Source: an uncultured Ruminococcus sp.
Lineage (GTDB): Bacteria; Bacillota; Clostridia; Oscillospirales; Ruminococcaceae
Reading direction: 5' to 3'
Assembly: GCA_947627445.1 (NCBI GenBank)
Contig: CANQWA010000002.1
Span: forward strand, 1-64,000
Length of the DNA stretch: 64,000 bases
In this document: positions 6,390 to 45,006 of the stretch, piece by piece
How the letters are laid out: each line of letters begins with the position of its first letter
How positions within the stretch are numbered: position 1 is the first letter of the stretch
The notes under the pieces: generated by a model
Database searches by the model: none
What the model was told of the DNA's origin: nothing
The model's input: the letters and a program-made list of their open reading frames with translations, nothing else
Program-made: the position numbers and the translations under genes

Positions 6390-6520
6390 CAGAAGGTAGA
6401 AAATGCTAAAGCTAAACGGATTCACCCCTCGTCAATATACACGACAATCTCTGCAAAATATTATACAAAATGCAACTTGAAAGCACATTCAGTTCTATGA
6501 TATAATAATATATATGTAAA

Positions 6521-6620
6521 AACTTGTTCTCATAGGGAGCAGCGCACGTCTTTTCGGCAATTTTTTGCCGCTGACTGGATGCAGGCAACACCGCACACTG
6601 TCTCCAGAAGGACAAGTTCT
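6521..6620. repeat. ~100-bp element bounded by inverted AACTTGTTCT / AGGACAAGTTCT ends
   Basis: Inverted ends plus internal CGGCAA-TTTT-TTGCCG hairpin; related to the 44676-44838 element. Confidence 0.65.
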
Positions 6621-8089: not shown

Positions 8090-8205
8090 TTTCCTGGCGG
8101 ACCGCACTTGGATAAAAGACGGTGCATAATGGGAGATAACCATCAAGAAATAAGAACAAGTTTTAAAATTTCGGAGCAGTTTGATCGGATTGCTCCGAGT
8201 TCTGG

Positions 8206-8266
8206 GGAAGCACGGATTCAATCTGATGTGCATCAAGCTGTCAGGCGGGATTTCATCTGTGCTTCC
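8206..8266. repeat. 61-bp structured repeat, copy 1 (three-way-junction fold)
   Basis: GGAAGCACGGAT...ATCTGTGCTTCC outer stem with internal TGATGTGCATCA hairpin; ~90% identical to 44841-44901. Confidence 0.85.
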
Positions 8267-9817: not shown

Positions 9818-10076
9818 TGGAGCATCTGTCCGCATGGAAATCTGCGCAACTCGTTCCGGCAAATTTTGTCGGGAACTGTGTCAAAAATCCCTGCCGGATG
9901 CTGCCTTGCCTGCGGCTTTTTCTTTGCCTCCGCCAGAATACGGCTCAAAAGTCCATATGCAGCCTCTGTGTGGATAAGTTCAGAAAAAACAACAACAAAA
10001 ATTCCCTTTTCCGGTATGCCGGAAAAGGGAATCTTGCTTTTATCAGGTTGAGAACTTGTTCTCACAGATCACGAAA

Positions 10077-14702: not shown

Positions 14703-14982
14703 AAGTATATAGCGAAATCATCAAGGGGATGCGAGAAATCGTGTCCCTTTTATGATAGGTTCTGGTTTTTTCTGGCAGAAATTCATATAAAAATGTAAGA
14801 AAATTATAAGAATTGCAAGACAAAATCCGCTTTTTATGGTATACTATAATGAGGGATCGTGTGCGAATACACCTGGGACTACACCGTACAAAGACTGCCT
14901 GGCGGTTTTTTGCACGATCTTTGTACCGTGCTGTCCTGAGAACAAGTTCTGAAATTCCGTGAAACGGAGGCACAAACAACCG

Positions 14983-16311: not shown

Positions 16312-16580
16312 ATGATATCAGAACTTGCCTTTATCAAGGTGTGTGGACACTACCGCTCAAACACCCATCCTGCGGGCATACTTATGGCAATACGACAAAT
16401 CTGCTGACGGTCTGAACATTTCGGCTGGTGTCAACAAACCATCGAAGATGGACACGTCTCTTCGGCAAATTTTGGCGCTGCACACACCAAAATCCGTCGG
16501 GAAAATCCATACATGTTTTTGATGAAAACAGATTCTAATACTACTCCTCAAAAATCCGATGATCCGAAAGCAATCTCTAA

Positions 16581-16626
16581 GGCAAACCCGCACAAAGAGC
16601 GCTTGGCGGCTTTGCACGGGTTTGCC
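16581..16626. repeat. GGCAAACCCG hairpin repeat, copy 1
   Basis: GGCAAACCCGCACAAAG...CTTTGCACGGGTTTGCC; second copy at 42168-42213. Confidence 0.85.
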
Positions 16627-22927: not shown

Positions 22928-23039
22928 GGTGGATCTTCCTTTCTGAAAGCCTGTTCCGACTCTCCATGCGCGCGTCTTTCCGGCAGCTTTGCCATAGACC
23001 TCCCGGGAAATCCACTGCACGTCAGATACGAGACAGGTT

Positions 23040-23537
23040 CTATGAAAAAACGGTGGAATCGAATGCTTTCTTTTTTTGCCGTAATGCCTGGAAAAAATCC
23101 CGGAGAACCTGTGCGCAGTCCTCCTGCATCAGACCTTCAAAGATTTCCGGTTTCCAGTTATAGGGCAGTGCAAACAGTTCTTCTACCGAACGTACAGCAC
23201 CGCCCTTGGGATCACGTGTGCCGAAAACGATCTGATCCAGTCTGGCGTGAAGGATCGCACCGGCGCACATAGGACACGGCTCCAATGTGACATACAGGGC
23301 GCTGTCCAAAAGCCGCCAGCCTCCCAGCGTTCGGCTTGCAGCGTCGATCGCCATGATCTCCGCATGTGCCAGGGGAGAGCGGTCACATTCTCTGCGGTTA
23401 TAGCCCTCGCCGATGATTCTGCCGGTGGGCTTGTGTACCACCACAGCTCCCACGGGGACTTCTCCTAAGGAAAAAGCATGCTGCGCCAGTTCCAGCGCAC
23501 GCTGCATGTATGGGATTTCGGGAATAAAATCCGTCAC
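23040..23537 (-). CDS. tadA: tRNA-specific adenosine deaminase
   Basis: HAEIMAIDAASRTLGGWRLLDSALYVTLEPCPMCAGAILHARL. Confidence 0.95.
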   Translation of the reverse strand: MTDFIPEIPYMQRALELAQHAFSLGEVPVGAVVVHKPTGRIIGEGYNRRECDRSPLAHAEIMAIDAASRTLGGWRLLDSALYVTLEPCPMCAGAILHARLDQIVFGTRDPKGGAVRSVEELFALPYNWKPEIFEGLMQEDCAQVLRDFFQALRQKKKAFDSTVFS

Positions 23538-27386: not shown

Positions 27387-27475
27387 GAAACATATCATAA
27401 AAGCAACACCGCACCAAGAATGCCTGACGGATTTGTACGGTGCTGCCTAAACATTCTAAGAAGGAGAATATACAT

Positions 27476-27991
27476 ATGATCTGTCCAAACTGTGGCTCTA
27501 ATTTTGAAGGCGCATTTTGCCCCAACTGCGGTACAGCAGCTCAGCAGCCCAATGCGGCATCCAATATGGGGGCAACACCTCCGGTACAGCCCAATATGCA
27601 GCAGTATACCGGCGCACCAGTTCCGCCGCCTACGGGTTCTGCTTATGGCGTTCAGGAGCGTAACATTGCGCTTTGCATCATTTTTTCTCTGATCACTTGC
27701 GGTATCTACGGGCTGTATTGGCTGTACTGCCTGACAGAGGATGTCAAAAAGCTGTCCAATAATCCCAATGGCACTTCCGGCGGTATTACCATTCTATTGG
27801 GCATTGTGACATGTGGTATCTATCTCTGGTACTGGATGTATACACAGGGTGATGCCATCGACAAGGTCAAACAGTCCCGGGGAATTGCTTCCGGCAATAC
27901 GGGTATTCTGTATCTAATTCTGTCTATTGTTGGTCTGGGTATTGTTTCCTATGCCCTGATGCAGAACGAAATCAACCATCTAGCAAAGTAA
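27476..27991 (+). CDS. Zinc-ribbon plus DUF4234-like membrane protein
   Basis: MICPNCGSNFEGAFCPNCGTA; RNIALCIIFSLITCGIYGLYWLYCLTEDVKKLS. Confidence 0.85.
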   Translation: MICPNCGSNFEGAFCPNCGTAAQQPNAASNMGATPPVQPNMQQYTGAPVPPPTGSAYGVQERNIALCIIFSLITCGIYGLYWLYCLTEDVKKLSNNPNGTSGGITILLGIVTCGIYLWYWMYTQGDAIDKVKQSRGIASGNTGILYLILSIVGLGIVSYALMQNEINHLAK

Positions 27992-28148
27992 GAACAAGTT
28001 CTAAAAATTTCTCAGGAGCAAACACAAAGAGGGCTGCACCGGAAACGGGCAGTCCTCTTTCAAAAACCAGAAAAATAGAAGCAGGAGGCAAGAGTGGATA
28101 CTTTTTCTTGCCTCTTGCTTCTGTCCGGAAAAGGGGAGGCAGAAGCAT

Positions 28149-31216: not shown

Positions 31217-31294
31217 GTGATGCTTAAAGCATCACAGGCTCTGATGATCCATCACGAGATTTGTGCCAAATTTTAGAACTTGTTCTTAAATCCA

Positions 31295-33987: not shown

Positions 33988-34217
33988 TTTTTTGAGAACC
34001 TTTTTTCATCACAAATGTGCACGGATTTTCAGCAGATTCTGGTGAGGACAAGGAAAAAAGTCACAGGTAACATTGTGCCTGTCAGGACATTTTCATGCAG
34101 TACTCGCCAAAACCTGCCGGAGGGACGTGTGCAGTTTTTTGTGAAGACAGGTTCTGAGCCTGAAACAGGCTTTCATTGCTTTTGCAACAAGCAGCAAACA
34201 ACAGGAGGTGGGATAGG

Positions 34218-36175: not shown

Positions 36176-36778
36176 ATGCCGAATTATAACGCACTCCCTC
36201 TTGAACTTCTGACGGAGGAATTTGCCAAGCTGCCAGGTATCGGTCTGAAATCTGCCCGCCGTCTGGCGTATTACATGATTTCTCGTCCCGAGGAGGATGT
36301 CAAGCGGTTTGCGGATATTCTGCTTTCTGCCAAACAGGATATCCACTATTGCCCCTGTTGTCAGAACCTTACCGATCAGGAGCTCTGCCCTATCTGTGCA
36401 GAGGAAGAGCGGGACAGCACTGTCATTTGTGTGGTGGAAAGTCCCAAGGATGTCTCTGCCATGGAGCGGATCGGCGAATACAACGGTGTTTATCATGTGC
36501 TGCACGGACTGATTTCTCCGATTGACGGTGTTACACCGGACAAGCTGCGGATTCGTGAGCTTTTGATGCGCCTGCAAGGCGGAACCATCCGTGAGGTGAT
36601 CATGGCGACCAATCCCACCGTGGAAGGTGATGCTACAGCCATGTATCTGGCACAGTTGTTAGAGCCGCTGGGCATCAAAGTGACACGGCTGGCATTTGGC
36701 CTGCCAGTAGGCGGTACATTGGAGTACGCCGATGAGGTCACACTGTTCAAGGCACTGGAAAACCGGACTGAAATGTAA
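36176..36778 (+). CDS. recR: Recombination protein RecR
   Basis: LTEEFAKLPGIGLKSARRLAYYMI, Cys4 zinc finger CPCCQNLTDQELCPIC, Toprim CVVESPKDVSAMER. Confidence 0.96.
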   Translation: MPNYNALPLELLTEEFAKLPGIGLKSARRLAYYMISRPEEDVKRFADILLSAKQDIHYCPCCQNLTDQELCPICAEEERDSTVICVVESPKDVSAMERIGEYNGVYHVLHGLISPIDGVTPDKLRIRELLMRLQGGTIREVIMATNPTVEGDATAMYLAQLLEPLGIKVTRLAFGLPVGGTLEYADEVTLFKALENRTEM

Positions 36779-36893
36779 GAACAAGTTCTAAAAAACTGTC
36801 CACAGGTTTCGATGTGAACGAGTTCTGCATACAGCGCAATCGAAATACCGATATTTTCCTCCCCTTTTCCGGGGGAGGTTTCTTTTTCCCGGC

Positions 36894-42158: not shown

Positions 42159-42167
42159 AAAGCCAGA

Positions 42168-42213
42168 GGCAAACCCGCACAAAGAGCGCCTATCGGCTTT
42201 GTACGGGTTTGCC
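42168..42213. repeat. GGCAAACCCG hairpin repeat, copy 2
   Basis: GGCAAACCCGCACAAAG...CTTTGTACGGGTTTGCC. Confidence 0.85.
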
Positions 42214-44675: not shown

Positions 44676-44838
44676 AGAACTTGTTCTCATCGGATTTGAC
44701 CATGGATTTTCGAGCAGCATTTTGACGAGGGCAAGGCGAAAAAGCGAAAGCAACCTGCCGTATGGTGCGCTTTTTCTACGCAGCCATCGGCAAAATTTGC
44801 CGAAAAGAAAGATGCAATATCCGATGAGAACAAGTTCT
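44676..44838. repeat. 163-bp element with 20-bp perfect terminal inverted repeats (MITE-like)
   Basis: AGAACTTGTTCTCATCGGAT ... ATCCGATGAGAACAAGTTCT. Confidence 0.85.
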
Positions 44839-44840
44839 AA

Positions 44841-44901
44841 GGAAGCACGGATTCCATTTGATGTGCATCAAGCCGTCAAGCGGAATTTCATCCGTGCTTC
44901 C
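44841..44901. repeat. 61-bp structured repeat, copy 2
   Basis: GGAAGCACGGATTCCATTTGATGTGCATCAAGCCGTCAAGCGGAATTTCATCCGTGCTTCC. Confidence 0.85.
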
Positions 44902-45006
44902 TTAATTATAGCATTCTCGTAAAATCATGTCAAGCCGGTTGGAAATTATTTTCGCAGTTCCAGAACTTTTTCTCATATATTTCGTCTGACAAATCCGATG
45001 CCGCAC

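Follow-up and report, generated by a model that had tools for sequence, protein, structure and literature searches.

A MITE family of IS5 type in gut Ruminococcus with a covarying hairpin and recurrent 10-bp footprints

Results

The element upstream of the aconitase gene

The window analyzed here is a stretch of 64,000 nucleotides from an uncultured Ruminococcus sp. (contig CANQWA010000002.1 of assembly GCA_947627445.1). Upstream of its aconitase gene, where the intergenic region is divergent, lies an element of 161 bp that reads GAACTTGTTC...GAACAAGTTC and was placed by flank alignment between 3-bp direct repeats of the form TNA (Table 1). An earlier note, made from the sequence alone, had given its extent as 163 bp with terminal arms of 20 bp. 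Each of the arms (44676-44695 and 44819-44838) is the exact reverse complement of the other, but their outermost A/T belongs to the duplicated target, which leaves 161 bp for the element and perfect terminal inverted repeats (TIRs) of 19 bp. The inner features AAAAAGCG/CGCTTTTT and CGGCAAA-A-TTTGCCG were found in the sequence as described, and the 161 bp contain no open reading frame (ORF) of note, in line with the stated lack of coding capacity.

Chance is excluded as the source of the arms, since the 20-mer has three matches in the window at ≤3 mismatches compared to 0.00 expected from shuffles. The 15-bp tip has 211 matches in the genome at ≤2 mismatches, and its reversed control 4.

Table 1. 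Positions of the element, its relatives and the solo footprints in the window.
Feature	Position	Strand	Remarks
MITE copy proper	44677..44837	+	161 bp, without coding capacity; boundaries from the target duplications (TSDs); ~22 near-full genome copies
Left copy of duplicated target TAA	44674..44676	.	
Right copy of duplicated target TAA	44838..44840	.	
Left TIR	44677..44695	+	Outer 10 bp GAACTTGTTC, palindromic arms GAAC/GTTC
Right TIR	44819..44837	-	
Hairpin core, common to relatives with other ends	44704..44808	+	Main type versus relatives: core 71-74% identity, subterminal parts 32-50%
Older full-length member	33996..34154	+	IS5-like ends GAACCTTTTTTCATC / GAACCTGTCTTCACA; 76 bits, E 2e-17
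TSD TGA of the older member	33993-33995 and 34155-34157		
Shortened member, about 100 bp	6520..6619	-	TSD TTA/TTA on own strand, TAA/TAA on +
Solo footprint TTA-GAACTTGTTC-TTA	27989..28004	-	On +: TAA GAACAAGTTC TAA, the first TAA being the stop codon of ORF 27440-27991
Solo footprint TTA-GAACTTGTTC-TTA	36776..36791	-	On stop codon of ORF 36176-36778
Solo footprint TTA-GAACTTGTTC-TTA	31273..31288	+	
Solo footprint TCA-GAACTTGTTC-TCA	14937..14952	-	
Probable solo footprint TTA-AAACTTGTTC-TTA	8151..8166	-	One mismatch

Weaker matches to the hairpin model were found at window positions 9821-9982, 16434-16536, and 22946-23041 (52, 20, and 22 bits), and these are probably old decayed members. A second hairpin (44838-44904) abuts the element, with 15-bp arms TAAGGAAGCACGGAT and a 37-nt spacer. 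Similar copies occur at 8206-8266 of the window (90%) and at G000:C3:39551-39623 (84%), and it therefore represents another small repeat family.

Copies, target duplications and empty sites

The source genome (G000) is a Ruminococcus-like draft of 2.58 Mb in 80 contigs. A search for further copies, as the earlier note had proposed, returned about 22 near-full or full copies with the same ends and 86-100% identity, plus many fragments. Identical TNA target duplications flank 16 of the 21 copies in which they could be measured. Related full-length copies were found in Ruminococcus MAGs, one R. flavefaciens MAG, Oscillospiraceae, and a Clostridia MAG, most of them with matching TNA repeats.

Orthologous sites without the element, the second check that had been called for, were sought by joining the flanks of copies from two close genome pairs and querying the partner genomes, and such sites do exist. 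The L117 locus (UBA1394) reads GAAAAG-TAA-(161 bp)-TAA-TAGAAAAG and is empty in L164 (SUG375), which reads GAAAAG-TAA-TAGAAAAG; the insertion target was a stop codon (GAAAAG TAA, element, TAA TAG versus GAAAAG TAATAG). A further empty site was identified in the pair L104/L185 (GTAACTTTTAG versus GTAACTTTTA-element-TTAG). L094/L165, L097/L170, and L109/L176 are compatible with empty sites, though less clean. Within the source genome, an element also interrupts a member of another repeat family, and a copy of that repeat without the insertion is present as well.

This other repeat is a separate intergenic family of ~150 bp (GGCAAACCCGCACAAAGA...CTGACGGCGCATCTGACGCAC...GTTTGCC), abundant in the source genome, built of modular halves, and interrupted by the MITE. 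Copies are located in L027 (800-1240), L014, L026, G000:C3:5807-5980, and G000:C1:155035-155156, and fragments at 16580-16618 and 42164-42205 of the window. The 23-mer AGAACTTGTTCTCATCGGATTTG also occurs in a Pseudodesulfovibrio MAG contig (L099, 1212-1234) without the remainder of the element, and L099 was set aside.

Ends of IS5 type

IS5-family elements of the related genomes (PF13340; NCBIfam NF033580) have ends of the MITE type. The source genome itself carries one as a deleted IS of 304 bp (L129) with ends GAACTTGTCCACATAG and TSD TTA/TTA, whose TIR (GAACTTGTCCACATAGG) is similar, not identical, to that of the MITE (GAACTTGTTCTCATCGG). Other ends of IS5 type are GAACTTGTCTTCACAAG (L125) and GAGCCTGTTGACACTA (L120) in G017, GAGCCTGTTCACATAA (L121) and GAGCTTGTGTTCATAG (L126) in G015, and GCGTGTGTTCACATAA (L128) in the source genome. 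The IS at L119 was rejected as a partner, having other ends (AGATAGTGTCTACC).

The transposase with matching ends that the earlier note had suggested looking for was not found: searches with PF01609, PF13340, and transposase proteins gave no intact element with ends exactly GAACTTGTTCTCAT. Matches to PF01609/PF13340 in the source genome were solely decayed or non-matching elements, in a draft genome from which the parent may be missing. As no IS5 element was both intact and end-identical to the MITE, the partner is assigned to the family and not to an individual element.

The TSDs of the MITE fit the 3-bp TNA target of the IS1031-like groups. An insertion site of three nucleotides is mentioned in PMC2516522. 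A DDE transposase of the IS5 family would move the MITE in trans by recognizing GARCNTGTYNNCA-type ends, and insertion into TNA would duplicate the 3 bp.

The reading of the sequence as a non-autonomous mobile element, one of two that the earlier note had left standing, is strongly supported by the copies, the TSDs, the orthologous empty sites, and the IS5-like ends. Very probably, then, the segment 44677-44837 represents a single copy from a family of non-autonomous MITEs that occurs in gut Ruminococcus and its relatives and that an IS5-family enzyme would move in trans.

One core with several ends

Compared to its relatives, the main type is conserved in the core and much less so in the subterminal parts (Table 1). 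Elements found in the source genome by one core model had at least four end types, e.g., GGGCGTGTTGACACTA, GAACCTGTCTTCA, and GAGCCTGTTTCGTA, and several members with such other ends have matching TNA repeats, as in the TGA/TGA case at 33993-34157 of the window. One core thus carries different IS5-like ends, also inside a single genome. The end types of these members resemble various IS5 elements of the genomes examined.

Very short elements of about 50-67 bp were also observed, in which both TIRs of other end types are kept and the core is mostly gone (L078 1983-2032, L076 4609-4675, L084 4118-4182, L080 8692-8755, and G003:C78:2622-2674). They suggest many independent internal deletions.

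A single hairpin that covaries between subfamilies

The closed multi-helix junction expected earlier was not predicted. The element is predicted to fold, as RNA, into one extended imperfect hairpin (-71.7 kcal/mol, z = -8.7), and the opposite strand was similar. Nor are there nested separate hairpins: AAAAAGCG and CGCTTTTT belong to the same stem, and the halves of the CGGCAAAATTTGCCG palindrome each pair with the opposite arm.

Covariation was assessed in an alignment of 27 diverse members (166 columns). The consensus hairpin has 59 pairs, of which 34 had changes on both sides, and 95.4% of the cells were paired. All covariation measures were above every one of 500 shuffles (0/500) and above all slid controls. 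Copies within the source genome had 1 compensatory versus 32 broken site-types, whereas 43 compensatory and 34 singly broken site-types were found between subfamilies (Fisher p = 3e-8). Decay within the genome together with compensation between subfamilies indicates that copies drift once inserted, whereas the hairpin is kept in the lineage that propagates. Compensatory change would maintain the full-length hairpin in that lineage, probably since the element needs it, and the covariation between subfamilies indicates that the structure is important to the element's own biology, as DNA or as RNA. The excess of G-U over A-C, a hint to the folding strand, was borderline (Fisher p = 0.056) and no claim is made from it.

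Changes on both arms at more than half of the pairs could also arise without selection. Quasi-palindrome correction, in which template switching copies a mutation from one arm to the other, is a known mutational process in inverted repeats. It is a possible non-selective cause and the covariation could partly stem from it, but asymmetric bulges (e.g., columns 38-42 versus 124-126) persist uncorrected in all subfamilies, which argues against a sole role, and paired changes are almost absent among copies within a genome. That it replaces selection for the hairpin is therefore a doubtful proposition, and selection on the propagating lineage is the explanation that we prefer.

The stable fold, the covariation, and the divergent intergenic location ahead of aconitase would also suit a structured RNA of the host, or a hairpin that regulates in cis, e.g., an aconitase leader, which was subsequently copied. 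This is highly improbable, as the copies occupy about 22 unrelated loci with TSDs and orthologous empty sites, and lose their pairs freely. A search of Rfam gave no match at gathering score, the best being a chance match to MIR5048 (13.7 bits compared to a gathering score of 160). The structured RNA considered in the earlier note is thus unsupported as a host function, with genome copies decaying without keeping pairs, and we retain the mobile element as the identity of the sequence.

Solo 10-bp footprints

We searched for the pattern TNA-GAACTTGTTC-TDA, which leaves out ordinary element ends. The source genome contains 23 such sites, 18 of them with identical flanking TNA (permutation p = 1e-5), namely TTA/TTA in 12, TAA/TAA in 5, and TGA/TGA in 1. 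At one site, C20:2820, a partner end lies at a distance of 150 bp; it probably represents a full element that has diverged. Without it, 22 footprints remain, with identical repeats in 17. Six further carrier genomes (G060-G065) contributed 21 sites of the same pattern. Pooled over these genomes and the other carriers of the survey described below, the T/A flanks were TTA/TTA in 22 cases, TAA/TAA in 17, TTA/TAA in 1, and TAA/TTA in 0 (Fisher p = 2e-10), a table that includes C20:2820 and L206, the two among the 23 + 21 sites that probably mark where diverged full elements end and that are too few to alter the result. Direct, non-inverted flanks are the look of duplicated targets, and a palindromic operator would not show them.

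Among 36 genomes, sites occurred only in G000, G002, G007, G015, and G020, five carriers of this MITE superfamily, and in none of the other 31. A footprint on a stop codon in G061 (L198) reads AAG TAA GAACTTGTTC TAA TAATCTG where the G060 orthologue reads AAA TAA CAATCTG and so lacks exactly the 10 bp and one TNA. For a second footprint the G011 orthologue is likewise without the insert.

A host protein-binding motif, for instance a LexA-like palindrome acquired by the element, would be in keeping with the 12-bp near-palindrome and with the location of several sites near promoters or gene ends, such as 12331 adjoining a TATAAT. We consider this very unlikely, since the flanks are direct TNA repeats and not palindromic, the surveyed genomes without the MITE superfamily have no sites, and an orthologue lacks exactly the insert and one repeat. 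Operators were rejected on flank symmetry and phylogenetic distribution, and the solo sites are read as scars of the element.

When the G061 scars were compared to the initial 1.2 Mb of the chromosome contig of G060, no locus was full in one genome and reduced to a scar in the other, and a single empty orthologue, that of L198, was recovered. With no orthologous pair of this kind seen, we infer excision from the logic of the sequences. This logic lies in the palindromic tips (GAAC..GTTC), which give each copy the direct repeats GTTCT and AGAAC at both ends. In the consensus element no other direct repeats of ≥5 bp are shared by the two terminal regions, and these reach 7 bp with TCA or TGA targets. 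A deletion between either pair is predicted to leave exactly TNA-GAACTTGTTC-TNA or its mirror, which matches the observed scar. Copies would thus be lost in part by deletion across the base of the hairpin. For a family with non-palindromic tips (GAACCTGTCTTC, G017) no exact solo scar was found, though 13 element ends were listed. Deletions inside elements were seen as well: L105 has lost the segment between two TGAGAACAAG repeats, and at one orthologous locus L089 is full-length while L116 is internally deleted, an in-situ deletion.

Cut-and-paste elements are known to leave scars of this general kind upon excision by their transposase, and the footprint holds both tips and both TSD copies. 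Transposase-mediated excision followed by end-joining is nevertheless an unlikely source of the footprints. The retained 10 bp agree exactly with a deletion between the two GTTCT or the two AGAAC repeats, the G017 family lacks the exact 12-bp scar despite its end matches, and the other deletions within elements (L105, L116) have joints at repeats or short microhomology. Replication slippage between the direct repeats is the route that we favor. Nearly precise excision of Tn10-type transposons follows the same logic, in that an inverted-repeat element is deleted between short direct repeats close to its ends and a short remnant stays behind with both target copies (PMC12524634); the MITE would be lost in this manner.

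Stop codons of long ORFs carried 10 of 23 scars compared to 7.9% of non-coding-or-stop TNA sites (p = 4e-6); for full copies the number was 4/21 (p = 0.08). Insertion at a stop codon keeps the protein unchanged, which probably explains the surviving sites.

Discussion

The family resembles IS5-family-derived MITEs (IS427/IS1031-like) in its IS5-type TIR, its 3-bp TNA duplications, its lack of coding capacity, and the related IS5 elements (NF033580) that its host genomes also contain. It differs from them in that no intact end-identical parent was found here, the whole element is a covarying hairpin, and one core has several ends.

REPINs of Pseudomonas are miniature hairpins with compensatory two-sided changes and with excisions reported to leave a few bp of one end (PMC3116915). 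The MITE hairpin shares the compensatory changes on both sides. However, REPINs are tied to RAYT tyrosine transposases, whereas the ends and 3-bp TSDs of the MITE are of the DDE/IS5 type and argue against REPIN membership. ERIC, Correia/NEMIS, RUP, and bcr1, intergenic palindromic repeats of 100-165 bp with non-autonomous spread, are alike in these respects but appear unrelated in sequence, target site, and host. Compared to the Tn10-type case, the scars of the MITE are natural ones, deduced genome-wide, with a 10-bp remnant set by the palindromic tips. A literature search of limited range found no MITE of Ruminococcus.

Altogether, this is a new MITE family of IS5 type, a known category with an unusual combination of features, in which the evidence for insertion is good and that for decay and for maintenance of the hairpin is unusually clear. 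The family is a natural experiment on the decay of DDE-type MITEs, as a single clade shows empty sites alongside internal deletions and 10-bp scars. It poses the questions why a full-length hairpin is kept when transposase recognition alone should not need one, and how one core remains mobile across several transposase types. The scars are also a warning to annotators, since the dozens of intergenic copies of a 12-bp palindrome are here better read as what a transposon left behind than as operators. Tentatively, the core may be selected to fold at full length as ssDNA or RNA, the lineage may have survived by switching its ends to match several IS5-type transposases, and copies may be lost through repeated excision, with a 10-bp scar that spares the stop codon. 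If this is true, insertion at gene ends would be nearly harmless.
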